Shown: positions 31,371 to 54,739 of the stretch, in pieces
How the letters are laid out: every line of letters starts with the position of its first letter
Numbering within the stretch: position 1 is the stretch's first letter
From: Microbulbifer salipaludis
GTDB lineage: Bacteria > Pseudomonadota > Gammaproteobacteria > Pseudomonadales > Cellvibrionaceae
Assembly: GCF_017303155.1 (NCBI RefSeq)
Contig: NZ_JAEKJR010000002.1
Location: 1,116,001-1,180,000, forward strand
DNA length: 64,000 bases
Reading direction: 5' to 3'
Translations under genes and position numbers: made by a program
The notes under the pieces: model-generated
What the model was told of the DNA's origin: nothing
Databases searched by the model: none
What the model saw: the letters and a program-made list of their open reading frames with translations, nothing else

Positions 31371-31393
31371 GGGAGTGTCCGTTGGAATTTTGT

Positions 31394-31426
31394 GCCGGCA
31401 CCCCTGTTGAAGGGAGAGGTGCCGGC
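31394..31426 (-). repeat. Intercistronic hairpin between GH2 and CocE-like genes
   Basis: GCCGGCACC (31394-31402) and GGTGCCGGC (31418-31426) form a perfect 9-bp stem. No T-run follows, so mRNA stabilisation or processing is more likely than termination. Confidence 0.5.
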
Positions 31427-31446
31427 GGTTGGGAGTGCTGTGTTCG

Positions 31447-34686
<3,240 letters not shown>

Positions 34687-37880: not shown

Positions 37881-39610
37881 CAATGGGACTCCCGGCTGAC
37901 TTCGTCGCCGGAGCCGCCTGTCAGGAAGTTAAGGTCCGCGCCGCGATCAGCCTGCAACACCGTGTCGACGTACAGTTTGGCGTATCCGCGCTGGTAGGGT
38001 GACTCCGCGCGCTGCTGTTGCCAGCGGGCCAAGCGTTGCTGCAGCTCCTGGTCGCTGATGAGCAGCTCCAGGCTGCGCGCCTCGCCATCGAACGCAATCT
38101 CATCGCCATTTTGCACAACGGCCAGCGGGCCGCCGGCGTCGGCCTCGGGGGCAACATGCAGGATGACACTGCCGAACGCGGTGCCGCTCATGCGGGCATC
38201 GCTGATGCGCAGCATGTCGCGCACGCCCCGTTCCAGTAGCTTGCGCGGAAGCGCCATGTTACCCACCTCCGGCATGCCGGGGTAGCCCTTGGGGCCGCAG
38301 CCTTTCAACACCAGGATGCTGTGTTCATCGACCTCCAGGGCCGGATCGTCGATACGCGCGTGGTAGTCCTCGATCGATTCGAATACCACCGCGCGCCCGC
38401 GGTGCTTGAGCAGTTCTGGCGAGGCGGCGTTTGGCTTGATGATGGCACCTTGTGGGCAAAGGTTGCCACGCAGGACCCAGATGCCGGAGTTATCCTGTAC
38501 CGGGTTATCCGGATTGCGAATGACGTCATCGTTGTAGCACTCGGCAGTCTCCAGACGCGTGCCGAGCGTGTCGCCGGTCACAGTCATCGCCTCCAGGTGC
38601 AGGTGGCTGGCCATTTTTTTCATTACCGCCGGCAGGCCACCCGCGTAGTGGTAGTCCTCCATCAGAAATTTACCGGAGGGCATCAAGTTGACCAGCAGGG
38701 GGATGTCGCGGCTGAAGGTATCGAAATCGTCCAGCGAAAGCGGAACCTCCAGGCGGCCGGCAAGTGCGAGTAGGTGCATGACCGTGTTGGTTGATCCCCC
38801 CAGCGCCGCATTGACCTTGATGGCATTGATCAGTGCGTCGCGGTTCACAATATCCTTGATACGGATATTATCCTCGACAAGCCGCACGATCTCGCGGCCA
38901 GTCATATGTGCCATAGCCTGGCGCCGTGCGTCCACGGCGGGAATCGAGCCGTTATAGGGGAGGCAGAGACCGAGTGCTTCCACCAGGTTGGAAACGGTAG
39001 AAGCCGTGCCCATGGTCATGCAAACACCGCGTGATCGAGACATGCCGCTCTCCGCGGCAATGAAGTCGTCCATGGGCATGCGGCCAGCGCGAACGTCTTC
39101 GGAAAATTTCCACACGTCGGTGCCGGAGCCGATGTCGCGGCCACGGAATTTGCCGTTGAGCATCGGGCCTGAGGACACCACGATGGTGGGCAGGTTGACG
39201 CTCGCAGCGCCCATCAGCTGGCCGGGTGTGGTTTTGTCGCAGCCGCCTAGCAGGACTACGCCGTCAATCGGGTTGCCGCGGATCGACTCCTCCACGTCCA
39301 TCGACAGCAGGTTGCGAAACAGCATCGCCGTTGGGCGCATCTGGGTTTCGCCGAGGCTGGTGACGGGGAACTCCAGTGGCAGGCCTCCGGCTTCCCAGAT
39401 GCCGCGCTTGACGTATTCGGCGAGCTCGCGCAGGCCAGAATTACAGGGTGTGATTTCGGACCAGGTATTACATATCCCGATCACCGGGCGGCCGTCGAAA
39501 CAGTGGTCCGGGTAACCCTGGGCTTTCATCCACGAGCGGTGGATGAAGCCATCTTTATCCAGTTTCCCGTAGCTCAACTGGCTGCGGCGCTTATTCTTGT
39601 TGCTCGCCAT
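37880..39610 (-). CDS. IlvD/Edd family sugar-acid dehydratase (probable galactonate dehydratase)
   Basis: The 576-residue enzyme belongs to the iron-sulfur dihydroxy-acid dehydratase family, in the sugar-acid branch (arabinonate/galactonate/xylonate). Key marks are ICNTWSEITPCNSGL, LLGGCDKTTPGQLMGA (cluster Cys), SRGVCMTMGTAST (cluster Cys), ALGGSTNTVMHLLA, GNLCPQGAIIKP and DARMSGTAFGSVILHVAPEA. The dgoK and dgoA genes behind it make D-galactonate to 2-keto-3-deoxygalactonate the likely reaction; that is inference from context. I chose MASNKNKRRSQL (39610), where AGG is 9 bases upstream; the frame open to 39742 runs through the operator. It is the first gene of the six-gene operon. Confidence 0.88.
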   Translation of the reverse strand: MASNKNKRRSQLSYGKLDKDGFIHRSWMKAQGYPDHCFDGRPVIGICNTWSEITPCNSGLRELAEYVKRGIWEAGGLPLEFPVTSLGETQMRPTAMLFRNLLSMDVEESIRGNPIDGVVLLGGCDKTTPGQLMGAASVNLPTIVVSSGPMLNGKFRGRDIGSGTDVWKFSEDVRAGRMPMDDFIAAESGMSRSRGVCMTMGTASTVSNLVEALGLCLPYNGSIPAVDARRQAMAHMTGREIVRLVEDNIRIKDIVNRDALINAIKVNAALGGSTNTVMHLLALAGRLEVPLSLDDFDTFSRDIPLLVNLMPSGKFLMEDYHYAGGLPAVMKKMASHLHLEAMTVTGDTLGTRLETAECYNDDVIRNPDNPVQDNSGIWVLRGNLCPQGAIIKPNAASPELLKHRGRAVVFESIEDYHARIDDPALEVDEHSILVLKGCGPKGYPGMPEVGNMALPRKLLERGVRDMLRISDARMSGTAFGSVILHVAPEADAGGPLAVVQNGDEIAFDGEARSLELLISDQELQQRLARWQQQRAESPYQRGYAKLYVDTVLQADRGADLNFLTGGSGDEVSRESH

Positions 39611-39630
39611 ATGCATCGCCTGCAAAAATT

Positions 39631-39647
39631 TATTTATATGATAAATA
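39631..39647. promoter_or_regulatory. Operator (site A) before the dehydratase operon
   Basis: TATTTATATGATAAATA is a perfect 7-bp inverted repeat with a 3-base centre, 21 bases before the dehydratase start. It covers the -10 of the operon promoter and is identical to site B at 52808. This is a probable binding site for the adjacent GntR regulator. Confidence 0.7.
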
Positions 39648-39666
39648 GGAATAATCTGCATGGCAA
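39638..39666 (-). promoter_or_regulatory. Promoter of the dehydratase operon
   Basis: On the minus strand, TTGCCA (39661-39666), a 17-base spacer and TATCAT (39638-39643). The -10 lies inside operator site A, which fits repression. Confidence 0.5.
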
Positions 39667-39741
39667 GCGATGGGGAGGGCGGCGGAACTGCCGGATGGGT
39701 GCGCAGCCCATTGGCGTGAGGCAAGGGGGCCGTTAGAATCA

Positions 39742-39758
39742 CATTATTCTGATAAATA
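39742..39758. promoter_or_regulatory. Degenerate operator (site C) before the GntR gene
   Basis: CATTATTCTGATAAATA matches the 17-base operator at 13 positions, including the whole right half, and ends 10 bases before the GntR start. It suggests autoregulation. Confidence 0.5.
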
Positions 39759-39768
39759 TGGCGAAACT

Positions 39769-40476
39769 ATGATCAAGGCAGCAGGGCGTAACCTGACCCA
39801 CCAACTGGCCCACGACCTGGGTAATGCCATTTTGCAGGGCAAGTTTGCGAGTGATGCTTTTCCCTCGGAGGCTGAGCTGTCCGAGCGATTTGGCGTCAGC
39901 CGCAGCGCCACTCGTGAAGCGGTAAAGATGCTGACGGCCAAAGGCATCCTGTCCTCGCGCCCGCGCCAGGGGATCCGCATCATGCCGGAGAGTCACTGGA
40001 ACCTGTTTGATACCGACGTGCTGGACTGGATCTTGCGCAGTAAGCCGGGCCTGGATGTGTTGCGGGATTTTGTGCAGATGCGCGCGGCGATTGAACCCGA
40101 GGCGGCGGCGCTCGCGGCGCTGCGCTCAGATTCCGGGGGTATTGCTGAAATCGAAGCCGCTCTTGAGCGCATGCAGGCGGCAGAGCTTGGGCAGGATGAT
40201 GTGCTCGACTCCGATATCGCGTTTCACGGTGCGATTCTCAAGGCCAGCGGCAACCGGTTTTTTATCCAGTTGCAGCCATTCAGTGCAACGGCCCTGCGGG
40301 TCAGTATTCGCCATACCAACCGCTTTAAGGGGGTCAATGCGGCTGACACTGCATCACACGCCCGGGTGTTGAGCGCGATCAAACGCGGCAAGGATCAGCA
40401 GGCGCGCAAACTGATGCGCGGATTGATCGATGAGGCGCTGCAGCTGATTGAAGGCGAAATGCACGCAGCGTCTTAG
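39769..40476 (+). CDS. GntR-family (FadR-type) regulator, probable galactonate-pathway repressor
   Basis: The 235-residue protein from the ATG at 39769 has an N-terminal GntR winged helix (LAHDLGNAILQGKF, then PSEAELSERFGVSRSATREAVKMLTAKG and RPRQGIRI). A FadR-type FCD ligand domain follows, with metal-site residues in the order D..H (DSDIAFHGAIL) and later H (SHARVLSAI). It lies back to back with the dehydratase operon, as DgoR does with dgo genes. The probable ligand is a pathway sugar acid. The frame open upstream to 39670 is not used because it crosses the operator region. Confidence 0.85.
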   Translation: MIKAAGRNLTHQLAHDLGNAILQGKFASDAFPSEAELSERFGVSRSATREAVKMLTAKGILSSRPRQGIRIMPESHWNLFDTDVLDWILRSKPGLDVLRDFVQMRAAIEPEAAALAALRSDSGGIAEIEAALERMQAAELGQDDVLDSDIAFHGAILKASGNRFFIQLQPFSATALRVSIRHTNRFKGVNAADTASHARVLSAIKRGKDQQARKLMRGLIDEALQLIEGEMHAAS

Positions 40477-40486
40477 TAGTGGCCTG

Positions 40487-41392
40487 TCAGTCGGCGATAT
40501 CCCGATCCCTGTCGATAGCCGACTGCAGCCAGTCGCGGAATTTCTGGATCTTGGGTTGCTGTGCCTTGTCCTTGCGTGTGACGAAATACCAGTGGTTGGG
40601 GTTATCTACCCGATGTGCCGGGAAGGGTTCTACCAGAAGTCCGGCGGACAGCTCCCGCGAGACAAAAGGTTGCATCGCAAGGGCCACGCCTACGCCCTGC
40701 AGGGCCGCACTGAGCGCGTGGTCGTAACTGTCGAATTGCAGTCCAGCGGCTGGCTGCACGCCTTGCACACCGTTGCCTTCGAGCCACGTACTCCAGTCGG
40801 CTTCTGAGGGGTAGACCTGCAGAATCGGCGCCTGTGTGAGATCTTCCGGCTTTTCCAGTTGGTGCTGCGCCAGGATGCGCGGGCTGCACACAGGAAATAG
40901 CTGATTGGAAAACAGGTGCAGGTGGTCCAGATTGTTGCCGCCGGATCGGCCCACGCGAATACAGGCGTCCACCTCCTCGTGATCGAAGTCCACGTCGCTC
41001 TGCGACATGGTGAGCCGTACACTGACATCCGGATGGGTACGTTGGAAGTCGGACAGGCGCGGGATCATCCAGCGGATCGCGAAGGTACTGTAGAGTTGCA
41101 GTGTCAGTACTTTGGGTCGCTTGGGCGCAAGCAGGGATTCGGTGCCCTCGGAAATTTTTTCGAAGGCTTCGCGCAAAACCGGGTAGTACTGTCGTCCGCT
41201 TTTTGTCAGCGACACGGATCGCGCTTTGCGGACAAACAGCTCCAGGTCGAGGTAACGCTCGAGTAGCTTGACCTGATGGCTGATTGCCGAGTGGGAAACG
41301 CAAAGCTCATCGGCGGCATCGCGGAAGGAGCAGTGTCGCGCGGCCGCCTCGAAGCTGCGCAGCGCATTCAAGGGTGGAATTTTTTTGGCCAT
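40487..41392 (-). CDS. LysR-family regulator (GcvA-like)
   Basis: The 301-residue protein starts with a LysR helix-turn-helix of the GcvA/AmpR subgroup (IPPLNALRSFEAAARHCSF, then AADELCVSHSAISHQVKLLE). The effector-binding domain contains IRWMIPRLSDFQRTHPDVSVRL, DHEEVDACIRVGRSGG, and GVGVALAMQPFVSRELSAG. The target is unknown; it is divergent from the TPR-sulfotransferase gene with 133 bases between, so regulation of that gene is the natural guess. It converges on the GntR gene with a 10-base gap. Confidence 0.88.
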   Translation of the reverse strand: MAKKIPPLNALRSFEAAARHCSFRDAADELCVSHSAISHQVKLLERYLDLELFVRKARSVSLTKSGRQYYPVLREAFEKISEGTESLLAPKRPKVLTLQLYSTFAIRWMIPRLSDFQRTHPDVSVRLTMSQSDVDFDHEEVDACIRVGRSGGNNLDHLHLFSNQLFPVCSPRILAQHQLEKPEDLTQAPILQVYPSEADWSTWLEGNGVQGVQPAAGLQFDSYDHALSAALQGVGVALAMQPFVSRELSAGLLVEPFPAHRVDNPNHWYFVTRKDKAQQPKIQKFRDWLQSAIDRDRDIAD

Positions 41393-41410
41393 ATCATCGC
41401 TATGGTTGAA

Positions 41411-41427
41411 TTTTTATCATTTATTTG
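41411..41427. promoter_or_regulatory. Weak operator (site E) in the LysR/sulfotransferase gap
   Basis: TTTTTATCATTTATTTG matches the reversed 17-base operator at 12 positions and contains the full core TTTATCAT. It could tie the sulfotransferase gene to the galactoside regulon. Confidence 0.35.
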
Positions 41428-41525
41428 GGGCCGATTCGAGTTTGCCAGCAGGCCTTTGGGCGTGTCAATATTTTTGCTGAACCCTTACAAATTAAGGCTC
41501 GGCAGCGACCAGCTGCCGATGGCTG

Positions 41526-43619
41526 ATGAGCGATGACAGGCGCTTGCTGGATATCCCCGCATCCAGCGAACACAAACGAGAGTTGAAGGATATGGACCAG
41601 CTGCTGACAGCGGAAAGGCCGCGCGATAGTTTTGCCAAGGCCACCCACGCACTGAAGGCCAACCGTCCAAAAGAGGCCGAGACGATTTGTCGCAGCCTGC
41701 TCCAGCGCCATCCTGGCCACTTGCCCCATTTGCAACTGCTCGCGCACAGCCTGTCGCGACAGCAGCGCTTCGACGAAGCAGAATCCATACTGGCCAAAGC
41801 GCTTGAGCTGGACCCTAATCTGCCATCCCTTCACGACGAACTCGGCAGTCTGCAGGCACAGCGCCAGCGCTATGTCGACGCGGTGGCGGCTTTTGACCGC
41901 GCGATTGAGCTCGACCCGAACAATCCGCGTACCCATCAAAAACGGGCCAAGGCGCTGCACCTGCTGGGGCGCGACGATGAAGCGGAGGAGGCCTTTGACC
42001 AGTTCCTGCGCGGTGATCCCTTGGCTGCCCAAATTGCCGAGGGCGCGCGATTGTGGCGGGAAGGGAAACTTGATGACGCGGAGCCGTTGTTGCGCAAAGC
42101 TTTGCGCCAGGCACCGGACAATGTTGATGCAATGCGTTTTCTGGCACTGGTGCTACAGGACAGTGGCAAAAATCTGCTGGATGCCGAGGCGCTGTTGCGC
42201 AACGCCATTCAGAGGGCCCCCGACTTCCTGCCGGCACTGCAAAACCTCGGTGCCCTGCTGCTGGAGCGACAGCACTGGGAGGCCGCCGGCGAGATTTTTG
42301 CGCGCATTCTTGAGCTCGACGAGCGCAATGCCCTGGCATGGGCCTCACTTGGTCATGCCTGTACCCGGCGCGGCGAAGCGGAGGAGGGGCTGGCGCACTA
42401 CACCAGGGCGATCGAGTGCAATCCGCAAAGCGCCGGTGCGCATATGTCCCGTGGACACCTGCTAAAAACCCTTGGCCGGCAGGAAGAGGCGCTGGCGGCT
42501 TACCGGGAGTCCATCAGGCTTAATCCATCGCTGGGTGAAGTCTACTGGAGCATGGCAAACCTGAAAGTCTTCCAGTTTAGTGATGAAGAAGTGGCTGCGA
42601 TGCTCGAGCAGCTCGATAGCGACGACCTGGGGGAGGTGGCGCGTGTGCACTTTCACTTCGCCCTCGGCAAGGCGTTTGAGGATGTGCGCGATTACGATCG
42701 CGCGTGGCAACACTACCATGCGGGAAACCAGCTCCAGCGCCAGCAGGTTGAGTATGATCCGGTCGAGTACCAGGTGATGCTGGATGATATCCGCGAGCAA
42801 TTTTCCCCGGAGTTTGTCCAGCGTCATCGCGGTGGCGGATCGACACACGAGGACCCTATTTTTATTGTGGGCCTGCCGCGCACCGGGTCGACGCTGATCG
42901 AGCAAATCCTGGCAAGCCATTCACAGGTTGAGGGCACCGAAGAGTTGCCGAATATTGCGACGTTAGCCGCATCTACGGCGAAGTATCGCCGCGACAACGC
43001 GGTTTTCCCTCGCACCCTGGCGGATTTTGACGAGCGTGATTTTGAGCACTACGCACGCAAATACCTCGCCGAGGTCAAGCACCTGAGGGTAATGGGGCGG
43101 CCATATTTTATCGACAAGATGCCCAATAATTTTGCCTATGTGGGCTGGATAAAATTATTGTTCCCGCGTGCGAAAATCATCAATACGCGGCGTTTTCCTC
43201 TCGACAGCTGCCTCGGTGCTTACAAGCAGTTGTTTGCCAAGGGGCAGAATTTTACTTACGACATGCTGGAGTTGTCGGACTATTACCGCGACTACGTGCG
43301 CATGATGGCGCATTGGCACGACCTGTTTCCCGGCGAAATTCTCGATGTGCATTACGAGGATCATATGGAAGATTTCGAGGGGCAGGTCCGGCGCATCCTC
43401 GATTACTGCGGCCTGCCATTCGAGCCGCAGTGCTTGCGTTTTTATGAGAACCAGCGTGCGGTAAAGACCGCGAGCTCTGAACAAGTCCGCCAGCCGATTT
43501 ACCGCAGTGCACTGGGGCTATGGAAACGCTACGAGGCGCATCTCGGCATGTGGCAGGAAGAGCTCGCAGAGGTGATCGAACAGCTTCCGGAGCGGGTCCG
43601 GAAGCTGGCCGGTCAGTAG
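41526..43619 (+). CDS. TPR-repeat protein with C-terminal sulfotransferase domain
   Basis: This protein of up to 697 residues has an N-terminal array of about ten tetratricopeptide-type repeats (AKATHALKANRPKEAETICR, LEDP/LDPNLPSLHDELGSLQ, AYRESIRLNPSLGEVYWSMAN and others). A sulfotransferase domain follows from about residue 440. Its PAPS-binding loop is PIFIVGLPRTGSTLIEQIL, a second motif is FIDKMPNNF, and the 3'-phosphate site is KIINTRRFPLDSCLGAYKQ. No signal peptide is visible. The acceptor is unknown; TPRs suggest a protein or large substrate. A paralogue lies at 54.7 kb, and both neighbour TonB receptors. Neither start (41526, or an ATG at 41592) has a well-spaced Shine-Dalgarno. The stop overlaps the convergent gene by 7 bases. 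Confidence 0.88.
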   Translation: MSDDRRLLDIPASSEHKRELKDMDQLLTAERPRDSFAKATHALKANRPKEAETICRSLLQRHPGHLPHLQLLAHSLSRQQRFDEAESILAKALELDPNLPSLHDELGSLQAQRQRYVDAVAAFDRAIELDPNNPRTHQKRAKALHLLGRDDEAEEAFDQFLRGDPLAAQIAEGARLWREGKLDDAEPLLRKALRQAPDNVDAMRFLALVLQDSGKNLLDAEALLRNAIQRAPDFLPALQNLGALLLERQHWEAAGEIFARILELDERNALAWASLGHACTRRGEAEEGLAHYTRAIECNPQSAGAHMSRGHLLKTLGRQEEALAAYRESIRLNPSLGEVYWSMANLKVFQFSDEEVAAMLEQLDSDDLGEVARVHFHFALGKAFEDVRDYDRAWQHYHAGNQLQRQQVEYDPVEYQVMLDDIREQFSPEFVQRHRGGGSTHEDPIFIVGLPRTGSTLIEQILASHSQVEGTEELPNIATLAASTAKYRRDNAVFPRTLADFDERDFEHYARKYLAEVKHLRVMGRPYFIDKMPNNFAYVGWIKLLFPRAKIINTRRFPLDSCLGAYKQLFAKGQNFTYDMLELSDYYRDYVRMMAHWHDLFPGEILDVHYEDHMEDFEGQVRRILDYCGLPFEPQCLRFYENQRAVKTASSEQVRQPIYRSALGLWKRYEAHLGMWQEELAEVIEQLPERVRKLAGQ

Positions 43620-44533
43620 GGCCATACCTCCAGCCCATGGATCGCGTTGCGCACATCGCTCGATAGCCGCACGCTGAGGGCGGTCTCCCCGGACTTCAGG
43701 TCGTGCACCGCGATACTGGAGGGCGAGGAGCCGCCGGCTACCAGGGAGTCGCTGATGACGCAGAGCCCGCGGGCGAACCCGGCTCGGGCGATGCGACTTT
43801 CATCCAGTCCGACCCCGGTCAATTCTGTTTCGCCGTATTGCGGCACCCCGAAAGCCCTGTCACGGTCCTGGTCGCGGCTGGCAAAGCGCAGTACATCCGC
43901 GCGCGTATCATTGAACAGTACCCCGTCCTGAAATGGCCTGGCATTGTGGGTGCCGCCCGGCAAGGTCGCACTCATGTTTACGCCGCGGCCATTGAAGTGC
44001 AGCATACCGTCGGTGTTGAGCCCCGAGAAATACATACCGTCGCCGTTGCAATGAATACTGTTGAGGTGCAGCTTGTTCAGCATCAGTGGGCCCTGGTCTC
44101 CCTTCGGGTCAAAGGTCGCCGCACGGTAGCGCAGGCCGTCCGTGTCCACGGCCAGCGCCCAGTCAAAGGTTTCCGTATTCAGGTTGAATCCGAGGATGCT
44201 GTCGAAGCCGGTTGAGGTCAGGAAAAGTTGGTCCTGCCACAGGCATATTTCGTGGCAGTGCTTGAGGTAAGGGTTGCGCCATGAACCGATGGGGCGGAAG
44301 TCCGGCGTGTAGGCATACAGCTCGTCACTCGCGGCGATAAATATTCGCTCTCCCGCGCACGCGATACCGCGCAGTCCGCGGTCCCAGCCGCGCCCGCGCC
44401 AGTCGATATCCACCGTGTTCCAGTCCAGCATTTGCCGGGCCTGCTGGGTTGCCAGATCAACCAGGTAGACGCCGCCGTGGCTGTCGCCTTGCTGGCTTCC
44501 CCGTACGACTGAGGTCGCAATCAATGTGGTCAC
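43613..44533 (-). CDS. Beta-propeller-like protein of unknown function
   Basis: The start is the GTG at 44533, one base after the GH2 stop, with AGGAG 6 bases upstream inside the GH2 end. The longer frame is a shadow. The 306-residue product repeats a strand-rich pattern about every 45 residues (GGVYLVDLATQQARQML, GERIFIAASDELYAYTP, DQLFLTSTGFDSILGFN, DGMYFSGLNTDGMLHFNG, GLCVISDSLVAGGSSPSSIAVHD). That suggests a propeller fold, like SMP-30 or TPR-sulfotransferase-associated proteins. I do not recognise the family. There is no signal peptide. Coupling to the beta-galactosidase and TonB receptor and convergence on the sulfotransferase gene suggest a role in the same substrate system. Confidence 0.7.
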   Translation of the reverse strand: MTTLIATSVVRGSQQGDSHGGVYLVDLATQQARQMLDWNTVDIDWRGRGWDRGLRGIACAGERIFIAASDELYAYTPDFRPIGSWRNPYLKHCHEICLWQDQLFLTSTGFDSILGFNLNTETFDWALAVDTDGLRYRAATFDPKGDQGPLMLNKLHLNSIHCNGDGMYFSGLNTDGMLHFNGRGVNMSATLPGGTHNARPFQDGVLFNDTRADVLRFASRDQDRDRAFGVPQYGETELTGVGLDESRIARAGFARGLCVISDSLVAGGSSPSSIAVHDLKSGETALSVRLSSDVRNAIHGLEVWPY

Positions 44534-44534
44534 G

Positions 44535-47500
44535 TTATTCTCCTGATACTGCCAGTGGATAACCATCCGCCTGCTGGGCCTGAATAATAAAGCCGAAACG
44601 GTAAGCATCGCCGGCCAGTGAGTAGCGGCGCAAGGGTTGAGCGCCCCAGGAATTGTCCCCGCCGACACCCATTTGCGCGTAGTCGATGTGCAGCGATACC
44701 AGGTCTCGCGGCGCAATGGCGTTGACGTGGACATTGCCGGTGCGCGGGTTTACCGCATCCGGCACATTGCCGTAGGCAAAATCCTGCCATAGATAGTGGT
44801 GCGCAGAGAAGCCCAGCAGCGGTAGACCCTGTATGTGCAGGCCCTCGCCCTGGGAATTTTGCAATGACAACCACCGGGTATCGGTCTTGTAGCCGTTTTC
44901 CTGGGGGCGGCCGTAGGGCACGTATTGCGCGGCCACGCTACTGTGATAGATACCCACATCTGCTGCCAGCTGCCGGTCAGCGTAGTTCTCCATTGGCCCG
45001 CGTCCAAACCAGCGCAGTGCGTCATAGTCCGCTGGCAGGGTGGTGTGCATGCCGACACGCGGCCAGGGTGGGGTATCCGGCGCGCGTTGTACCTGATTGT
45101 TCACTTCCAGGCGGCCGTCACCGTGCAGGCGATACTGCGCGATCCAGTCTCCCAGGTGGCGGCCCTCGGTGCCGAGCATACGGTAGTGGGCGCGAATGCC
45201 AGACGCAGCCTCCGGCATGCGCTCCAGTGCATATAACTGCAGTGCGGGTGCGCGCCAGGCTGCTGCACGTGCAGGCATGTCGCTACCGCGATCGTTGTCA
45301 GTGGGTGCGCGCCAGAACTCGGGCTTGAGCGGGCTCAGCAGCAGCGCGTCGCCCTCGGTGCCGAACTGCTCGAGCAAGCCGGTGGAGCGGTTGAACACCG
45401 CCTCGACCCCGCCGGCGCGGAGCGTAAGGGCCTGCGGCGACTCCATCACGGTGACGGCGCCAACGGCCAGGGGCGCAGTCGCAGCGACAGTGGGGCTGCC
45501 CGGCAGCGGGAACTGGCTGCGAGCGACCTCGTGGCCCGCGGGCAACAGCGGCGAGGAGTCCCGCTGCACAGCCCAGAGGTCGAGGTGGTACTCGTAGCCG
45601 GGCTCGCGCCGCGGCAGTGGCAACTCCAGCACCTGGTTACCGCGCGCAGGGATTGGGGTGGCTTCGGTAAGCGTGCCGCCGGCAACCGGTTCACCATTGC
45701 GTCGCAATGACCAGTGCAGGTCGAGGCCGCTGGTATCGCTAAAGTCAAAGTCATTGTGCAGCCGCAGCAGGCCGCGGTTCAGGTCCACTGGCTGCCAGCG
45801 CAGCGGCTGATAGGCCCGTTTGACCTCCCAGTAGGCGGGTTGTGGGCTGCGGTCGGAAAACAGCAGTCCATTCATGTTGAAGTTGCCATCGCTCGGCACG
45901 TCATCGGGACCGTAATCGCCGCCGTAGGTCCAATAATTTCGGCCGCGCGCATCGCGTTCGAGCAGGCCCTGGTCGACCCAGTCCCAGATGAAGCCGCCAG
46001 AGAGAATGTCGTGCTCGCGGATTACGGTCCAGTACTCACGCAGGTTGCCGACGCTGTTGCCCATAGCGTGGGCATACTCGATCAGCAGGAATGGGCGATC
46101 GCCGTGTTCCTGGGCATATTTCTCCAGGTCCCAGTAGCGCCAGTACATACTCGAGTGGAAATCCGAGTGGCGCTCGCCCACGTCAGCCAGTTCACCCTCG
46201 GTCTCGTATTGCACCGGGCGGCTCGGGTCGGTCTTCTTGAGCCAGTGATAACCGGCACCGATGTTATCGCCGTCGCCCGCTTCGTTGCCGAGGGACCAGA
46301 TCACCACGGATGCAAAATTCTTGTCGCGCTCGAACATGCGCTGCACGCGGTCGAGGTGGTGCGCGCGCCATTCGGGCTTGTCCGCCAGGGTCTTGTCGGG
46401 CGCATAGCCGAATCCATGAGTTTCCACGTTGGCTTCATCGACCACGTAGAGGCCGTACTCATCCGTCAATTCGTAGAAGCGCTCGGGAAACGGGTAGTGC
46501 GAAGTGCGCACCGCATTCATGTTGGCGGCCTTCATCATGCGGATGTCCGCGAGCAGGGTTTCCTCATCGACCACGTGGCCGGTGTCGTGGTGATGTTCGT
46601 GCAGGTTGACCCCTTTGAGCTTGACCGCCTTCCCGTTGATGCGGAAGACGCCGTTACGTATTTCGAGTTCGCGAAATCCCACCCGGTGCCGAAAAGCTTC
46701 GAGCACCGCGCCTTGCGCGTCGCGCAGCGACACAACGAGGGAATAGAGGTTGGGTGTCTCGGCGCTCCACGGGCGTATCCCGGGAACCTCTTCCGCCGGG
46801 AAATGGATGTCCCGCTCGCCGGGAGCGATGGTAACGCGGAGGGCGCTGAGCTCCCGGTTGCCGTCGAGCAGCTGTACTTCCAGAGCGGACGGTTGTTCCT
46901 CCGAACCCGTGCCGGCGAGCTGCACCTGCAGCGACAGCAGCCCGGTCTGGAAATCGTTGGTGAGCCCGGCGTTCACGGTAAAGTCGCGGATGTGTGTTTG
47001 CGGCCGCGCGCTCAGGTAGACGCCGCGGGTAATGCCCGACAGCGACCAAAAGTCCTGGTCCTCCAGATAGGAGCCGTTGCTCCAGCGGAACACTTGTATC
47101 GCGACGCTATTGGTACCGGATTGGAGTAGTGAAGTGATGTCAATTTCCGATGGCGTTTTGGACCCTTCGCTGTAGGCGGCGTACTGGCCATTCACCCACA
47201 CATAGTAGGCGGAGGATGCCGCGCCGACGTGTAGGAAAACCTTTTGTCCGGCCCATTCTGCAGGCAGCTCGAAGCTGCGCAGGTAGCTGCCCACGGGGTT
47301 GTCGTGCTCGGGCGGGTTGGGCGGGTCCACGGTAAACGGGTATGGGATGTTGACGTAGATCGGGTAGCCGTAACCGTGGCGCTCCCAGTTGGCCGGAACC
47401 GGGATCTGTTCCCACTTTGCGGTGTCGAACCCGGGGGCGGCAAAGCCCTGCGGGCGCTCCGCGGGTGTGGCGCTATAGTGGAATTTCCACAGCCCGTTCA

Positions 47501-47705
47501 GCGATAGCTGCCGCGGGTTATCTCCTCCTGTCAGCGCTTGTGCCGCATCGGGGTAGGCGGTGAAGTGCGCGCGCGGCGGCATGACACCCTCGCGGATCAC
47601 TGTGGGGTCTTTCCAGTGTGCGCCCGGTAGGTCTTGTACCGCGGCCTCCCGGTCTGCGCAGGCGACCAGTAGCAGGGGCAGCAGGATCTGGTGCAGACGG
47701 GGCAT
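44535..47705 (-). CDS. GH2 beta-galactosidase, lipoprotein type
   Basis: The 1056-residue enzyme has a lipoprotein signal (MPRLHQILLPLLLVAC, lipobox with Cys16), so it should be tethered to a membrane, probably the outer membrane. The LacZ plan is complete: NWERHGYGYPIY, GSYLEDQDFW, LKGVNLHEHHHDTGH, acid/base Glu475 in SLGNEAGD, nucleophile Glu543 in LIEYAHAMGNS, and WFGRGPMENY near the C-terminus. AAGGAG is 6 bases before the ATG. It is between a TonB receptor gene (upstream, across a terminator-like hairpin) and the propeller gene. The order fits surface binding and trimming of galactosides. Confidence 0.92.
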   Translation of the reverse strand: MPRLHQILLPLLLVACADREAAVQDLPGAHWKDPTVIREGVMPPRAHFTAYPDAAQALTGGDNPRQLSLNGLWKFHYSATPAERPQGFAAPGFDTAKWEQIPVPANWERHGYGYPIYVNIPYPFTVDPPNPPEHDNPVGSYLRSFELPAEWAGQKVFLHVGAASSAYYVWVNGQYAAYSEGSKTPSEIDITSLLQSGTNSVAIQVFRWSNGSYLEDQDFWSLSGITRGVYLSARPQTHIRDFTVNAGLTNDFQTGLLSLQVQLAGTGSEEQPSALEVQLLDGNRELSALRVTIAPGERDIHFPAEEVPGIRPWSAETPNLYSLVVSLRDAQGAVLEAFRHRVGFRELEIRNGVFRINGKAVKLKGVNLHEHHHDTGHVVDEETLLADIRMMKAANMNAVRTSHYPFPERFYELTDEYGLYVVDEANVETHGFGYAPDKTLADKPEWRAHHLDRVQRMFERDKNFASVVIWSLGNEAGDGDNIGAGYHWLKKTDPSRPVQYETEGELADVGERHSDFHSSMYWRYWDLEKYAQEHGDRPFLLIEYAHAMGNSVGNLREYWTVIREHDILSGGFIWDWVDQGLLERDARGRNYWTYGGDYGPDDVPSDGNFNMNGLLFSDRSPQPAYWEVKRAYQPLRWQPVDLNRGLLRLHNDFDFSDTSGLDLHWSLRRNGEPVAGGTLTEATPIPARGNQVLELPLPRREPGYEYHLDLWAVQRDSSPLLPAGHEVARSQFPLPGSPTVAATAPLAVGAVTVMESPQALTLRAGGVEAVFNRSTGLLEQFGTEGDALLLSPLKPEFWRAPTDNDRGSDMPARAAAWRAPALQLYALERMPEAASGIRAHYRMLGTEGRHLGDWIAQYRLHGDGRLEVNNQVQRAPDTPPWPRVGMHTTLPADYDALRWFGRGPMENYADRQLAADVGIYHSSVAAQYVPYGRPQENGYKTDTRWLSLQNSQGEGLHIQGLPLLGFSAHHYLWQDFAYGNVPDAVNPRTGNVHVNAIAPRDLVSLHIDYAQMGVGGDNSWGAQPLRRYSLAGDAYRFGFIIQAQQADGYPLAVSGE

Positions 47706-47734
47706 GGGGGGCTCCTTATGTTTCGGTTGGCAGG

Positions 47735-47764
47735 CGAAAAAAGGCCGGCACTAGTGTGCCGGCC
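47735..47764 (-). terminator. Terminator-like hairpin between TonB receptor and GH2 genes
   Basis: On the minus strand, GGCCGGCACACTAGTGCCGG folds as a perfect stem (47743-47764) followed by TTTTTTCG. It should stop or attenuate transcription from the receptor gene before the GH2 gene. Confidence 0.75.
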
Positions 47765-47837
47765 AAGGGTGACGCGGTGAGAGCCATGCCCGCTGGGGCT
47801 GGGAGTGTCCGCGCGGTGAAAGGATGCTTTTTTTGGC

Positions 47838-50234
47838 CTAGCGGAAGTTGAAGTCTTTCTTGAAAGACAGCACCACTTCCCGCGGCCGGTTGTAGCTCGG
47901 CATATTCACGTAGCGTCCGACATCGGACCAGGTGCCGTTGCTGCCGAAACGCCAGTCGTAGCCGCTGTCGATCCAGCCCGCATTGCGGTCATCCCAGAGG
48001 TTGTACACGCTGAGTGTCGCCGTCCAGCTGTTTTCCTGCCACAGGCCAGCGGTGAGTGAGGCTTCCTTGCGGTCTTTAATAAGTGGGCGGCCCCACTGGG
48101 CGTTCCACCAGTCGTGGTTCATGGCTTCGGTCCAGCTGTGGTCGTAGCGGATCCAGCCGCCGATATCGCCAAACAGTTCCGGCACACTGTATTCCGCTCC
48201 CAGCCACCACTTGCTCGGCGGTGCCAGCGCCAGGCCTTGCCCCTTGGAGGCAATTAGCCAGTCTTGCGATGGATCAATTTCCGGGGCGGCATCGCTCAGG
48301 TAGAAGTCGTCGAGAATTTTCGAGCTGCTGCGGGCATAAGAACCCTCGAGCTTGAAGTTTTCGGTCATCTGGTAGGTCATGGTGGCTTCGATACCCGTTG
48401 CCTCGGCATCGCCGGCATTGACATGGCCGCTGACTTCCCAGAAGTAGGGGTCGCCAATATTGCGCTGCATATCCTCCCATTTCATCAGGTAGGCGGACAG
48501 GTTGAGCTGCAGGGAATTGTCCAGCCACTGGCTCTTCAGGCCGATCTCGTGGTTGAGCAGTTTGTCCGCACCGTATTCTTCTGGCAGCACACTTTCCCGA
48601 CGGATCTGGGAGTTGGCACCGCCGAGCCGGAAGCCTTCACTGTAGGTCGCATAGACCATGCGATCATCGTCGATGTGGTAGTTGAGGCTGAGCTTGTACA
48701 CCGTATCGCTGTCGACGCCCTGGAAGATGTCCAGCGGCAGGTAGTAACCGCGTGGCCAGAACTTCTGCTCGCTGCGGTCGCGGTCGTACTCGAACCAGCG
48801 CGCACCCACACCGGCCACCAGCTTTTCGGTAAGGTCGTAGCTCATTTCACCAAACACGGCCGTTTGCGTGGTCTTGGCGTTGTAGACTTCACCGTAGTAG
48901 TCATTGGTTTCCGGTACGTCGTACCAGTAATTGACGTACTGCCAGGAAGGGGTTTCGGTGTAGTTTTCAACCCGCCAGTACCAGTCCCAGAAGTCATCGG
49001 TCTCTTCATAAAACGCACCGGCCATCCACTGCAGGCGGCTGTCGCCCATGGAGGCGAGGCGGATTTCCTGGGATACGCGCTTGCCAGTCTGGTCGTTCAC
49101 GCGCTGTTCGTCTTGGAAGGCGGTGTCGTACCAGGTGCTGTAGTAACCGAATTCCCCATCCTGTACCCGCTTGGCGCGGATCTGCGCATCGAGGCTGTTG
49201 TCGAACTCGTAGTACACCTCGCGGTCGAGGAAAGAGCTGGTCATGGTCAGCTCGGCGAAGCCCAGGTCACCTTTAAAGGTGAGGCCTGCAGCCCACCAGT
49301 CATCGGTGCGCTCGTCCTTGAAAAAGCGCACGATTTCCAAATCGCCTTCTGCGGGGTCTGACTTCCAGTCGCCAGTGGAGCGCTGGGACTGCTGCATGAC
49401 CATCAATTCCGCATCCCAGTCCTCATTGATGGTCCACAGAGCACTGATGCGGGCGCCGCTCTGGTACCAGTCATTGAAGTCCTCTTCGACAACATCGCTG
49501 TTGAGCTCATCGGTGAAGACATTTTTGCCCTCAACGTTATCGATATAACCGGCGGACTTGGTGTCATAGGCGACGAGTCGCACGCTCAGTGTATCGGTCA
49601 CCAGCGGCAGGTTGAGCCAGGCTTCCGCGGTGTGGCCGGTCTCGCCTTCCTTGACGCTGGTGGCGTCGACCTTCACGGAGCCATAGGTACCGCTGTGGTC
49701 GGGCTTGTTGGTAATGATGCGCAGGGCGCCGGATTGCGAGCTGGAACCGAACAGGGTGCCCTGAGGACCCGGCAATGCCTCGACACGCTGGATGTCGACC
49801 ATGCGCGGATCCACCTGCTGGGTGGGCGACGTCATGGGAATTTCATCGAGGTAAACAGCGGCGGAAGAGTCGGTGCGCCACTCGCCGGTGCCGGTACTGA
49901 TGCCGCGGAACACGACCTCATTGCGCCCCGGCGTTTCGGCCACGGCAGACATGCTGGGGATTGCCTTGAGGTAATCCTGCATATTTTTAAAGCCGAGCTT
50001 CTCGATCTGCTCGGTGGTGAATGCCTGGATGCTCTGCGGCAGGTCCTGCATGTCCATTTCGCGCTTGGTGGCAGTAACGGTAATTTCCTCTACCGCTACG
50101 TAATTGCTCTCTTGTTCATCGCTCGCGACCTCGTCTTCGGCGAACGCTGCCATTGAGGTCAGCGATGAGGCCATGGCGAGGCTGATTGCCGCGGCCAGGG
50201 GCCTGCGTGCGGGGGGAATTGCCCGGAGTTTCAT
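47838..50234 (-). CDS. TonB-dependent outer-membrane receptor
   Basis: The 798-residue receptor has a long signal peptide (about 32 residues, cleaved before EDEVASDEQ) and a TonB-box-like EEITVTATKRE. A plug domain follows (IQAFTTEQIEKLGFKNMQDYLKAIP, RVEALPGPQGTLFGSSSQSGALRIITNKP), then a 22-strand barrel region ending in the aromatic-terminated REVVLSFKKDFNFR. It probably imports a galactose-containing oligosaccharide, since GH2 and operator site D sit beside it; the ligand is inferred. AGGAG lies 7 bases upstream of the ATG. It is the same subgroup as the receptor at 56.9 kb. Confidence 0.93.
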   Translation of the reverse strand: MKLRAIPPARRPLAAAISLAMASSLTSMAAFAEDEVASDEQESNYVAVEEITVTATKREMDMQDLPQSIQAFTTEQIEKLGFKNMQDYLKAIPSMSAVAETPGRNEVVFRGISTGTGEWRTDSSAAVYLDEIPMTSPTQQVDPRMVDIQRVEALPGPQGTLFGSSSQSGALRIITNKPDHSGTYGSVKVDATSVKEGETGHTAEAWLNLPLVTDTLSVRLVAYDTKSAGYIDNVEGKNVFTDELNSDVVEEDFNDWYQSGARISALWTINEDWDAELMVMQQSQRSTGDWKSDPAEGDLEIVRFFKDERTDDWWAAGLTFKGDLGFAELTMTSSFLDREVYYEFDNSLDAQIRAKRVQDGEFGYYSTWYDTAFQDEQRVNDQTGKRVSQEIRLASMGDSRLQWMAGAFYEETDDFWDWYWRVENYTETPSWQYVNYWYDVPETNDYYGEVYNAKTTQTAVFGEMSYDLTEKLVAGVGARWFEYDRDRSEQKFWPRGYYLPLDIFQGVDSDTVYKLSLNYHIDDDRMVYATYSEGFRLGGANSQIRRESVLPEEYGADKLLNHEIGLKSQWLDNSLQLNLSAYLMKWEDMQRNIGDPYFWEVSGHVNAGDAEATGIEATMTYQMTENFKLEGSYARSSSKILDDFYLSDAAPEIDPSQDWLIASKGQGLALAPPSKWWLGAEYSVPELFGDIGGWIRYDHSWTEAMNHDWWNAQWGRPLIKDRKEASLTAGLWQENSWTATLSVYNLWDDRNAGWIDSGYDWRFGSNGTWSDVGRYVNMPSYNRPREVVLSFKKDFNFR

Positions 50235-50306
50235 GTCTGTTCTCCTCGGGTGCGTTTATTGTAGTGCTCTCCCCCACGATCAAAGCTGCGGTCGCTAGGG
50301 GCTGCG

Positions 50307-50323
50307 GATTTATCATATAATTG
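50307..50323. promoter_or_regulatory. Degenerate operator (site D) between TonB receptor and hydroxylase genes
   Basis: On the minus strand, CAATTATATGATAAATC matches the 17-base operator at 14 positions, 73 bases before the receptor start and 118 before the hydroxylase. It could serve both divergent genes. Confidence 0.55.
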
Positions 50324-50440
50324 AGCTCCGGGAATTACCCGTGACAAAAATTTCAGCGGTGGTGAGGAAATTTCACCTATCTGGTGTGTCAACTCTGGAA
50401 TAGTGGAAGCCTCGACCGGTACTTAGCAGGCCTGTGTAAC

Positions 50441-51028
50441 ATGGAATTTGATGCCCCCTTCAAAATGCTCGAGCTGCGCGACTGCAGTGAGCTACACGCT
50501 TGTATCGCTGCCGCACCGCAGTCCGAATGGGAGACTAACCGCCTGCGCCAGCAAACCTTCGATGTGCACTACCAGACCCAATCTCTGGTGATGCTGTTTA
50601 TTAGTTGTAACCCTTGGCCGCAGGCAGAAATCTACCGCGAGGATGGCTGGGGCAGGCTCGCAAGTGCCGCCTTGCCGCTGATGCGTGAGGTTATCGAGCA
50701 GCACTATGAGCCGGGCGGAATCGTGCTGCGCGCCATGGCGGCGAAGTTGGTGCCTGGGGGGATCATCAAGCCCCATGTAGATGCGCACCCGTCATTTCGC
50801 CACGCACACCGCATTCATATCCCGATCACCTCCAATGCCAAGGTGCGCTTCAATATTGGTGGGCGCCCGTATCGCTTTGAGGTGGGCAAGGTCTATGAAC
50901 TGAACAACCAGTTACAGCACAGTGTTATGAATCGCGGTAGTGAGGACCGGATCACCTTTATCTTTGATTACCTGCCGCCCACTAAACGCGGACAAATTGC
51001 CGCATCTGGCGTGACAAGTCTCTGGTAA
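50441..51028 (+). CDS. Aspartyl/asparaginyl beta-hydroxylase-like dioxygenase
   Basis: From the ATG at 50441 the product has 195 residues. It shows the 2-oxoglutarate/Fe(II) fold of the Asp/Asn beta-hydroxylase family: IIKPHVDAHPSFRHAHRIHIPI holds the HxD iron pair, VRFNIGGRPYRFEVGKVYELNN the strands, and LQHSVMNRGSEDRITFIFDY the distal His and the 2OG-binding Arg. An in-frame start at 50384 is possible. Enzymes of this group hydroxylate protein side chains or small molecules; the target is unknown. It is divergent from a TonB receptor with a shared operator, an association also typical for TPR-sulfotransferases. Confidence 0.85.
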   Translation: MEFDAPFKMLELRDCSELHACIAAAPQSEWETNRLRQQTFDVHYQTQSLVMLFISCNPWPQAEIYREDGWGRLASAALPLMREVIEQHYEPGGIVLRAMAAKLVPGGIIKPHVDAHPSFRHAHRIHIPITSNAKVRFNIGGRPYRFEVGKVYELNNQLQHSVMNRGSEDRITFIFDYLPPTKRGQIAASGVTSLW

Positions 51029-51235
51029 GCGCATTCTCGAGATGCGGTGTGGTGTGGTGTTGCGGTGAGTGGTGGATTTTTCTCAACCGCAGGAGAATTT
51101 TCCTCAGTTGAACAAATGGGGAGAGGGTGAGGATACTCGGCGTCGCCAGGGTGAGCGGTGCCAGCCGGGTGTCGAGACGTTGCTCGCTGTGTTGAGTATT
51201 TCCTGGCCACAACAATAATCAATCAGGAATAAGCG

Positions 51236-52786
51236 ATGAAAAAACGAATCTCCACAGGGGGCCTGTTGGTTGCCCTGTTACTTATTGTCACGGCAATACC
51301 CGCATCTGCACTCACCGTTTCCCCGGATGATAGCGGCATTCGCTATACCGGCCGCTGGAACTTCGATAACCCGCAGGAGCCCTGGATTGGCTGGCAGGGG
51401 TCAACCATAGAAATTCAGTTTCAGGGCTCCAGTATCAGCGCGGACCTGAACCCCGGCGACAGCCACGAGTACTTTCGCGTGATTTTAAACGGTGTCCCGT
51501 CTGAGCAGCTGATCCGCCTGGAGCCGGGGCGTACCACGGTGACGCTGGCATCTGGCCTGGCGACAAACCAGTCGCACCATCTGGTGTTGATGAAGGAAAC
51601 CTTTTATGGCACCAACAGTGTCTTCTACGGTTTCGATATCGCCAATGGCGTAGTGCAGACGTTGCCGCCACGCCCGGCTCTGCGCATTGCCTATTTCGGC
51701 GATTCGAACATGGACGGCACTTCTCTCTATAGTGAAAAAGACCAGCAGGGCAATGATCCGCTATCGAGTGAGTCGGGCACCTACTACGCCTATCCTGCCA
51801 CCGTCGCGCGTATGCTCGGGGCGGAAATGCATCTGCAAGCTGCGGGCGGAGCGACCCTCTCTGGGCCCGGTGACAATACGGTTGCCAAGTTTATTTACTC
51901 ACCGGACTGGTACAACCAGGATCAGAATTACCGCAGCGGCTTCAACCCGCACGTCATTGTGGTCAATGCCGGCGCTAACGATATCAGCGGTATCAAGGGC
52001 AAGCAGCAAAAGAGCAAAGTGAAGGACCGCTTCAGGCTGGTAGTCAGCGAGCTGCGCAATGTGTACGGCGAAACGCCGCATATTGTGTTGTATAACGCCT
52101 ATGGCTGGGACCTGGACGAGCCGGCCAACTACACCCATGAACTCATCAGCGAAATCGGTGGAAAAATTTCCGTGATGCTTTACCCGTGGATGTGGGAGCA
52201 GTGGCACGGTTCCATGGTCGAGCACGCGGGGCAGGCGCGACTGCTGGCGGAGCATATCACCAACCTGGGGCTGGGTTTCTCCATCGTGCAGCCGGCGGAA
52301 ATCTTTGATGGTTTCGGGCGGAATTTTGATGTGGCCAACGGCAGCTTCGAATACGCGGCCCGGACCGGCTTCGAAGCCTTTGGCTGGCGCTATGTGGACG
52401 ATGGTGTCGAGCGCGTATACGACCCGGCGGGTGCTGCCGATGGCAATTACTATATCCGCCTGGCGGTGGGTGATCGGGTGCATCAGGGCGGCGATGCCAC
52501 CGGCGATTTCCAGCCCGGTGCGACCAGCGGCGGCCAGACCTATGTGGTGCGCGCCATGGTCCGCGGCACTGGCACGGAGCCCACCGCGCAGATTATTGCT
52601 GACTTTGAGGAGCAGGCGCTTTACGGGCGCAGCAATGCGCAGACCCGCAGTTTTGCCGTGGACGGTGTATGGCGCGAGTACACGGCTACCTTCACTGCAC
52701 CCGATGGCACCTGGAAAACTTACATCAACCTGAAGTCCGCCGGTGGTACGGTGGAGTTTGATGATGTTCGCATGAGCGCCCAGTAA
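51236..52786 (+). CDS. Exported SGNH esterase (CE2-like) with C-terminal carbohydrate-binding-like domain
   Basis: The 516-residue protein has a signal peptide (MKKRISTGGLLVALLLIVTA, cleaved near residue 25). An N-terminal jelly roll (residues 30-145) is followed by an SGNH hydrolase. Its block I is IAYFGDSNMDG with the catalytic Ser near residue 159, block III is VVNAGANDI, and the late His is in VEHAGQARLLAEHI. This jelly-roll plus SGNH order is that of CE2 carbohydrate acetylesterases. Residues 365-516 (VANGSFEYAARTGFEAFGW to VEFDDVRMS) look like a CBM4/9-type sandwich. It likely deacetylates a galactan or xylan outside the cell. AGGAATAAGCG precedes the ATG. Confidence 0.83.
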   Translation: MKKRISTGGLLVALLLIVTAIPASALTVSPDDSGIRYTGRWNFDNPQEPWIGWQGSTIEIQFQGSSISADLNPGDSHEYFRVILNGVPSEQLIRLEPGRTTVTLASGLATNQSHHLVLMKETFYGTNSVFYGFDIANGVVQTLPPRPALRIAYFGDSNMDGTSLYSEKDQQGNDPLSSESGTYYAYPATVARMLGAEMHLQAAGGATLSGPGDNTVAKFIYSPDWYNQDQNYRSGFNPHVIVVNAGANDISGIKGKQQKSKVKDRFRLVVSELRNVYGETPHIVLYNAYGWDLDEPANYTHELISEIGGKISVMLYPWMWEQWHGSMVEHAGQARLLAEHITNLGLGFSIVQPAEIFDGFGRNFDVANGSFEYAARTGFEAFGWRYVDDGVERVYDPAGAADGNYYIRLAVGDRVHQGGDATGDFQPGATSGGQTYVVRAMVRGTGTEPTAQIIADFEEQALYGRSNAQTRSFAVDGVWREYTATFTAPDGTWKTYINLKSAGGTVEFDDVRMSAQ

Positions 52787-52807
52787 GTGGCGATGGCTGC
52801 CCAACTT

Positions 52808-52824
52808 TATTTATATGATAAATA
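52808..52824. promoter_or_regulatory. Operator (site B) before the dehydrogenase/lactonase operon
   Basis: TATTTATATGATAAATA is identical in all 17 bases to site A at 39631. It lies 45 bases before the SDR start and contains a TATGAT that could be the -10. Confidence 0.7.
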
Positions 52825-52868
52825 TGGTAAATTGGGCGGCCAATAATTGAGTGACTTGAGGGGGCGCT

Positions 52869-54580: not shown

Positions 54581-54739
54581 CGGGTTTGGCGCGCCGGCAC
54601 GTTGACAGATGACAGCGTACTCCGACACACTGAATTCGAAACCAAAAAACCAATAATAAGTTCGCCGCGTGTGGGCGTTGGCTCCGGGTCCGCCGCCGAC
54701 ACCGACGCAGTTGAACCGCGTTGTACGGGAGTCCCGCCG

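Follow-up and report, generated by a model that had tools for sequence, protein, structure and literature searches.

What reads the palindrome that recurs across the galactoside-utilization locus of Microbulbifer salipaludis, and which promoters does it join? We addressed this question in a window of 64,000 nucleotides (contig NZ_JAEKJR010000002.1, positions 1,116,001 to 1,180,000 of the forward strand), to whose letters the coordinates given here refer. A first-pass annotation had noted one 17-mer, TATTTATATGATAAATA, in identical form at 39631 and 52808; both matches are exact, and they are the only two in the whole 3.98-Mb genome. We consider it very likely that the FadR-subfamily GntR protein encoded at 39769-40476 uses this palindrome as its operator, and it would repress the surrounding galactose operons until an acid inducer binds. 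Judged by sequence, this is a real regulon of a known type with a variant operator.

Three strong sites carry this reading. Site A (39631..39647, plus strand, exact match) is a perfect 7-3-7 palindrome, TATTTAT-ATG-ATAAATA, in the gap between the divergent dehydratase operon and gntR, and is probably the operator of the former, shared with the latter. Site D (52808..52824, plus strand) is an exact copy of site A upstream of a dehydrogenase-lactonase operon. Site C (50307..50323, minus strand, 14/17) lies between a TonB receptor operon on the minus strand and an Asp/Asn hydroxylase-like gene on the plus strand, and its 15-bp core, ATTTATCATATAATT, holds one mismatch. The dyads read ATTTAT-ATG-ATAAAT in A and D and AATTAT-ATG-ATAAAT in C, where one dyad position is imperfect. 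At site A, a promoter-like TTGCCA-17-TATCAT of the dehydratase operon (39638..39666, minus strand; 10/12 in a consensus scan) has its second hexamer (39638-39643) in the middle of that palindrome, which bears out an earlier remark that the site covers a good -10. A partial repeat, GATAAATATGGTAAATT (52817..52833, plus strand, 12/17), overlaps site D with a 9-bp shift; its significance is uncertain, and the arrangement resembles a double-operator layout.

The strong sites are peculiar to this locus. Counting both strands of the window, five matches to the 17-mer have three or fewer mismatches, a number that none of 100 shuffles reached; genome-wide, five distinct places pass the same threshold, three of them within the galactoside locus. 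The 15-bp core ATTTATATGATAAAT is found with no more than one mismatch at just three places in 3.98 Mb, namely sites A, C and D, and the next-best match is a single two-mismatch place outside the window. The three best core matches of the genome fall in one 13-kb stretch, which includes gntR. Random scatter across the genome, which the first-pass annotation had named as grounds for abandoning the idea, describes relaxed matches only: the strong sites are not scattered, and the core at up to three mismatches is near background (39 matches versus 26 for a reversed control).

The closest relative, Microbulbifer sp. NKW57 (GntR 86% identical), has three sites with at most one mismatch at the corresponding positions (546834, 536164 and 533677), with spacings from the first of 10,670 and 13,157 compared with 10,676 and 13,177 here; a fourth such place lies on another contig. 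In the alignment, its site A is TATTTGTATGATAAATA, with one change (to TTGT), and the 15-bp core of its site C is identical to ours. Site D is kept there as the dyad ATTTATCATACAAAT, in which the centre has flipped from ATG to CAT and one half carries the canonical AC. Conservation of a dyad through such a flip is what would be expected under selection by a symmetric protein dimer.

Does the site follow the regulator in other genomes? We compared 48 Microbulbifer genomes, our own included (genus inferred), taking orthologs at identities of at least 55% for GntR, 85% for the dehydratase and 61% for the dehydrogenase, and reading 450 bp upstream of each. A GntR ortholog is present in 14 of the 48. 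Among these GntR-bearing genomes, a site with at most one core mismatch precedes all seven dehydratase orthologs, and one with at most two precedes 8 of 13 dehydrogenase orthologs. Sites lie upstream of gntR itself in 11 of 14 cases at up to two core mismatches and in 13 of 14 at up to three; two further gntR copies (G001:C9 and G017:C13), with weaker sites nearby, stand outside the upstream counts. Because five of the 26 best sites are in shared divergent gaps (gntR/dehydratase in G000, G001 and G017; dehydrogenase/dehydratase in G015 and G059), these amount to 21 distinct sites. The dehydratase keeps its site in G015, G023, G033 and G059 despite lying on another contig or far from gntR, while the orthologs in genomes without GntR have no site upstream (dehydratase, 0/1, G021; dehydrogenase, 0/1, G061). 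Twenty dinucleotide shuffles per group gave at most one region at two mismatches, and none of 4000 background windows had a match with two or fewer. In the 14 genomes with GntR, whole-genome core counts at up to two mismatches came to 107 (reversed control, 50); in the 34 without it, they came to 256 (reversed control, 244).

Paralogs were considered as site carriers and rejected, as none of 34 had a site: 0/14 dehydratases (57-59% identity), 0/11 short-chain dehydrogenases (SDRs; 45-50%) and 0/9 GntR proteins (36-39%). These controls comprise all 14 dehydratases listed, 11 of the 15 SDRs listed at 43-50%, and nine of the more numerous GntR proteins at 36-39%. A sister GntR group (37-39%; L017, L097, L098, L101 and L102) is found in genomes that carry a paralogous dehydratase-SDR pair; in 5/9 loci, TGGTTAAACAA or TGGTGAAACAA lies at -35 of the sister gntR gene itself. 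These boxes were found by a search for TNGT-N2-3-ACNA, which before the paralogous dehydratases returned two single, non-recurring matches. The operator of the sister group may differ from the one described here.

Beyond the genus, we read the region upstream of gntR in 80 named loci, the best 80 of 502 confirmed relatives. Leaving out six named Microbulbifer loci gave 74 regions (not dereplicated), of which 62 were non-redundant. A core match with up to two mismatches appeared in 29/74 (shuffled mean 0.50, maximum 3) and one with up to three in 54/74, a figure that stands without a shuffle control. The symmetric form ATTTRT-N3-AYAAAT matched 28/74 with at most one mismatch (shuffled mean 1.50, maximum 6) and 55/74 with at most two (shuffled mean 12.1). 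An unseeded Gibbs search of the 62 regions, Alphaproteobacteria included, under an imposed palindromic 17-bp model arrived at tATTTATAaTATAAATa from 2 of 12 starts with a score of 645.5; eight base-shuffled sets, with one start each, scored 333.7-368.0. Homologs of SSS, DgoK, DgoA, the dehydratase, SDR or lactonase are held by 25 of the 33 loci among the 80 that were annotated (dgoK or dgoA by 13), and in four Sphingomonas/Sphingopyxis loci SSS-dgoK-dgoA is divergent from gntR. That the centrally encoded FadR-type GntR recognises a shared operator, one of two possibilities raised initially, is thus strongly supported by co-occurrence, by distant targets, by absence of the site without GntR (two cases) and by unseeded rediscovery.

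The protein itself fits this assignment. It joins an N-terminal GntR winged helix-turn-helix domain (PF00392, 48.5 bits; cut-off 27) to a C-terminal FCD effector domain (PF07729, 76.1 bits; cut-off 24.3), as in the FadR subfamily, and is 34% identical to E. coli DgoR over 162 amino acids. Its best sequence match among solved structures is 7c7e, and none of the 22 NCBIfam models listed for it reaches its cut-off. The first-pass annotation had found the palindrome unlike GntR half-sites. The FadR-subfamily box is described as TKGT/ACMA, mostly with three nucleotides separating GT and AC (PMC4494728, section 10). The operator here, mostly TTAT-N3-ATAA, has the register and the 3-bp spacer of TKGT-N3-ACMA with A for G, and in the symmetrised matrix from the unseeded search the G position of the box has A at 0.85 and G at 0.13. 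Some relatives carry one canonical half (ATTTGTATGATAAAT) or two (ATTTGTCATACAAAT, a Colwellia). A predicted operator of this form is not foreign to GntR proteins: it probably represents the family box TKGT-N3-ACMA, in most cases with A where that box has G.

Which residues might accompany this substitution? Arg35 of FadR has been correlated with a G in the box (PMC4494728), a letter that we take, by our own reading, to be the K of TKGT. Since the corresponding position is Ala in the GntR orthologs (Ser in G028), a T at the K position fits the published correlation. Arginines R45 and R49 of the recognition helix (FadR numbering) are invariant among 13 aligned orthologs. Gln83 of AraR contacts A and T (PMC4494728, Table 1), and the Gln preceding the wing glycine here may correspond to it, as judged by position and not by alignment. 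An A-for-G operator combined with an unchanged arginine offers a natural test of the amino-acid/base correlations published for the FadR subfamily (PMC4494728, section 10).

Sequence comparison gives the sites, their restriction to the locus, their co-conservation with GntR and with genes of the galactose pathway, and the promoter consensus that site A overlaps; physical binding, repression rather than activation and the identity of the inducer are what we infer. That GntR binds the sites we regard as close to certain. A dimer would sit on ATTTRT-N3-AYAAAT, with one winged-helix domain per half. Free of inducer, it would block the promoter of the galactonate operon through site A, over the -10, the galactose dehydrogenase-lactonase operon through site D, and the TonB receptor-beta-galactosidase operon through site C. 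As site A covers a -10-like hexamer, repression is the most likely mode, and we think it highly probable that GntR represses there by covering the promoter. The gntR gene would be limited by its own product from site A, perhaps also from a weak site at 39742, and such autoregulation by either route has a good chance of being correct. Once galactosides have been taken up and galactose has been oxidised, the FCD domain would bind a De Ley-Doudoroff acid, most likely D-galactonate, and the DNA would be released. An acid of the oxidative pathway is the likely inducer; for D-galactonate in particular, the odds are moderately favorable.

Several results weigh against this mechanism. The promoter consensus scan found no match on the plus strand at site D (there is one on the minus strand) and none near site C, and the motif is AT-rich and overlaps a -10-like hexamer. 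Single one-mismatch matches appear in genomes lacking GntR (e.g., G020, G010 and G067), at background frequency. Five of the 13 dehydrogenase orthologs have no site in the 450 bp upstream; these stand some 10.5-15 kb away from gntR, and four of them have dgoK, dgoA and SSS homologs as neighbours. About a quarter of the 74 cross-class regions lack a site at up to three mismatches, the next Gibbs solution, an ATAT run scoring 560.3, is likewise above the shuffled sets, and in 8 of the 33 loci annotated no homolog of a pathway gene turned up over spans of up to about 10 kb. Finally, the G usual in this family is absent from most sites even though Arg45, the second arginine that contacts G, is retained; no structure accounts for the loss.

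The alternative that survives best, which we consider rather less likely, accepts binding by GntR and holds that the protein activates or is dual, or that the inducer is different (2-keto-3-deoxygalactonate, galactose, galactonolactone or another sugar acid). It draws on the distances of the best and second sites from the matched starts, which vary widely (-26 to -275), and on the enzyme substrates, which are only inferred because several NCBIfam models fall below cut-off. However, the dyad of site A covers the -10, favoring repression over activation, and E. coli DgoR is a galactonate-responsive repressor (PMC12288454).

It is far less probable that a different regulator reads the sites, a possibility that the first-pass annotation had allowed; candidates would be the GcvA-like LysR encoded next to gntR (40487-41392) or an unlinked factor. 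Tblastn (E up to 1e-8) against 12 loci, each spanning up to 20 kb, that surround GntR genes of at least 55% identity in other Microbulbifer gave no match to this LysR. Ten more loci, several with both the dehydratase and the site, gave none either; among annotated Microbulbifer loci, it occurs in NKW57 only. There, the gene is kept at 91% and a half-site-like block upstream of it is conserved, and one Colwellia locus (L233) has a distant homolog (33%) in the vicinity of gntR. Across genomes, presence of the site tracks GntR, and its dyad architecture is the box type of the FadR subfamily (PMC4494728). Given its absence around the GntR genes of these 12 and 10 loci, LysR was rejected as the regulator. 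That the likeness among sites is a mere shared AT-rich -10 promoter element is the most improbable reading of all, for although site A overlaps TATCAT and the core is AT-rich, three places at zero or one mismatch in 3.98 Mb is far below the number of promoters, the 34 paralogous genes carry no site, and the site D dyad is conserved in NKW57 while its centre flips.

The count of promoters that the palindrome may serve has to be reduced. The first-pass annotation had linked five; sites A, C and D are firm, one more is possible and one is unsupported. The match scores given for the variants (13/17 at 39742, 14/17 on the minus strand at 50307, 12/17 at 41411) were confirmed, but the statement that all keep the core ATGATAAA is wrong for 39742, whose core is CTGATAAA. 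This weak site, CATTATTCTGATAAATA (39742..39758, plus strand), is the sole four-mismatch place in the window and lies 10 bp upstream of the gntR start. It is a possible autoregulatory site, plausible but degenerate, of which the right half is conserved in NKW57 and the left arm is not. The sequence CAAATAAATGATAAAAA, upstream of the LysR gene (41411..41427, minus strand), resembles one half-site and forms no dyad. The window holds six places matching at 12/17 (41411, 52817, which overlaps site D, and four elsewhere), so that 41411 is at noise level and was rejected as a member; we find its belonging to the motif set quite doubtful. Because a 13-bp half-site block is kept there in NKW57, 41411 may serve the LysR gene; nothing links it to the palindrome.

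The gene content around the sites suggests oxidative galactose catabolism together with uptake and beta-galactosidases, with presumed substrates for the dehydratase and SDR. The operon facing site A, on the minus strand, begins with an IlvD/EDD-family dehydratase (37880..39616; PF00920, PF24877) that scores above cut-off for the dihydroxy-acid dehydratase subfamily models PRK06131 and PRK13017 of NCBIfam, is below the cut-off of the L-arabinonate dehydratase model, and probably acts on galactonate. It continues with dgoK, the 2-keto-3-deoxygalactonokinase (36888..37871; PF05035, 297.2 bits), dgoA, the 2-keto-3-deoxy-6-phosphogalactonate (KDPGal) aldolase (36259..36891; PRK09140, 260.9 bits; cut-off 207), a sodium/solute symporter (SSS; 34687..36243; above the TIGR00813 cut-off), a GH2 beta-galactosidase-like enzyme (31447..34617; Pfam GH2 domains and Bgal_small_N) and, last, a CocE/S15-type hydrolase (29550..31532; PF02129, PF08530). 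The TonB-dependent receptor (47838..50234; PF00593, PF07715) is the first minus-strand gene downstream of site C, and a second GH2 beta-galactosidase-like gene (44535..47705; Pfam GH2, Bgal_small_N) is co-directional with it. Downstream of this GH2 gene, a frame at 43613-44623 has no Pfam match at 1e-6 and is kept in NKW57 (81%). Site D is followed on the plus strand by an SDR (52869..53675; PF13561), probably a galactose dehydrogenase, whose best NCBIfam model, D-xylose 1-dehydrogenase, is below cut-off, and by an SMP-30/gluconolactonase-type lactonase (53672..54580; PF08450).

Two long frames in or beside the locus, 41526-43619 and 54602-56758, lie near TonB receptor genes and are presumed to resemble TPR-sulfotransferases. 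Across site C from the receptor, the Asp/Asn beta-hydroxylase-like gene (50384..51028, plus strand; PF05118) adjoins a TonB-receptor polysaccharide locus, and such loci are recurrently flanked by genes of this kind or by halogenase-like genes. Tryptophan-halogenase-like genes stand beside TonB-receptor polysaccharide loci at L164:13128-14675 (Pfam), L265:2745-4235 and L267:10608-12095 (tblastn).

In some relatives, the sites reach polysaccharide-degradation genes, and GH53 galactanase genes are preceded by a site in three of them. G033 has seven places with at most one mismatch: one precedes the SDR (L041), another the dehydratase operon, and two fall in gaps adjoining GH53 genes, where they face a TonB receptor and a DUF5107/GH35 pair. 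Of the remaining three, which may be there by chance, one is close to a gene whose product combines AbfB and alginate-lyase-like domains, one to that of a CBM2-GDSL protein (563 bp off) and one to that of a GH5-CBM2 cellulase. The G001 cluster (L037) also has a TonB receptor, GH53 and GH2. In G028, gntR adjoins GH95, TonB, DUF5597/GH42-like, GH31 and BNR/sortilin-repeat genes, followed by SDR-dgoK-dgoA-SSS homologs; to this set we would presumptively add the labels GH35-like and GH74-like. GH95 adjoins gntR in G015 and G034 also.

Two Cellvibrio genomes contain the pattern ATTTATAWKATAAAT with at most one mismatch at 6 and 3 distinct places (control 1 and 0), and each has one such place before gntR and one before a GH53 gene (Pfam). 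Another, in C. mixtus, is flanked by genes for a TonB receptor and a peptidase M3; the others show no link, and one is within a reading frame. Direct control of the xyloglucan-type locus in these two genomes was rejected, as the two loci read hold no site with two or fewer mismatches, and GntR as its direct regulator is not supported by the sequence.

How does this system compare with those already described? The regulon and motif were not found in the literature searched and may already be recorded in supplements or RegPrecise, which lay outside that search. The closest likeness is to E. coli DgoR, the GntR/FadR galactonate repressor, which responds to D-galactonate and represses through inverted repeats over the dgo promoter (PMC12288454). 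The two share the subfamily by sequence, the dgoK/dgoA pathway and a dyad operator with a 3-bp spacer, and both have Ala at the FadR Arg35 position while keeping the recognition-helix Arg. Inverted repeat IR1 of DgoR contains TTGTAGTACAA (PMC12288454), whereas the box here is mostly TTATATGATAA; where E. coli carries dgoD and dgoT in its operon, ours carries an IlvD/EDD dehydratase and an SSS symporter; and the present set of targets, in another difference from DgoR, extends to genes for a TonB receptor and glycosidases. BioR, the alphaproteobacterial GntR/FadR biotin regulator, has a box, TTATMKATAA, that shares the TTAT/ATAA halves (PMC4494728, section 5) and so provides a precedent within the subfamily for A replacing G. 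This likeness concerns the box, and BioR has a 2-bp spacer and biotin genes where we find a 3-bp spacer and galactose-pathway genes, so that the system is not of the BioR type.

Other parallels lie in gene content. Comparative genomics of the DgoR regulon in Halomonas assigns De Ley-Doudoroff genes to a single regulator, along with an SSS transporter and a COG3386 lactonase, as proposed here (PMC5507952); the comparison is one of gene content. The carrageenan locus of Pseudoalteromonas carrageenovora has a GntR labelled as galactonate operon repressor beside a galactonate dehydratase, lactonase and dehydrogenase (PMC6262041), a likeness of gene neighbourhood. We tentatively suggest, at slightly less than even odds, that the GntR clade is a general intracellular sensor of galactose catabolism in degraders of plant and algal polysaccharides, coupling breakdown of galactan (in some genomes xyloglucan) to the oxidative galactose route in Gamma- and Alphaproteobacteria, with a recognition that tolerates A or G where the family normally needs G and leaves the contacting arginine unchanged. 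Apart from that suggestion, the locus gives a testable regulator and operator for the use of galactose and galactan, and partly xyloglucan, in Microbulbifer, with relatives in Cellvibrio, Alteromonadales and Sphingomonads.

Cellvibrio japonicus has xyloglucan (GH95, GH31, GH35-like, TonB) and galactan (GH53, GH2, TonB) loci (PMC4285296), and similar enzyme sets adjoin GntR or its site in some Microbulbifer genomes; by our own reading of that paper, the G028 set resembles the xyloglucan locus. The two Cellvibrio genomes that we searched, neither of them C. japonicus, have the site before GH53 and gntR and not before the xyloglucan-type locus. On xyloglucan oligosaccharides, C. japonicus raises expression of some galactosidase genes, including one that neighbours galactanase and TonB receptor genes; galactose set free may be the general signal behind this, and the proteins that sense xyloglucan are described as unknown there (PMC4285296). 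For that galactose signal, the GntR described here is a concrete candidate.

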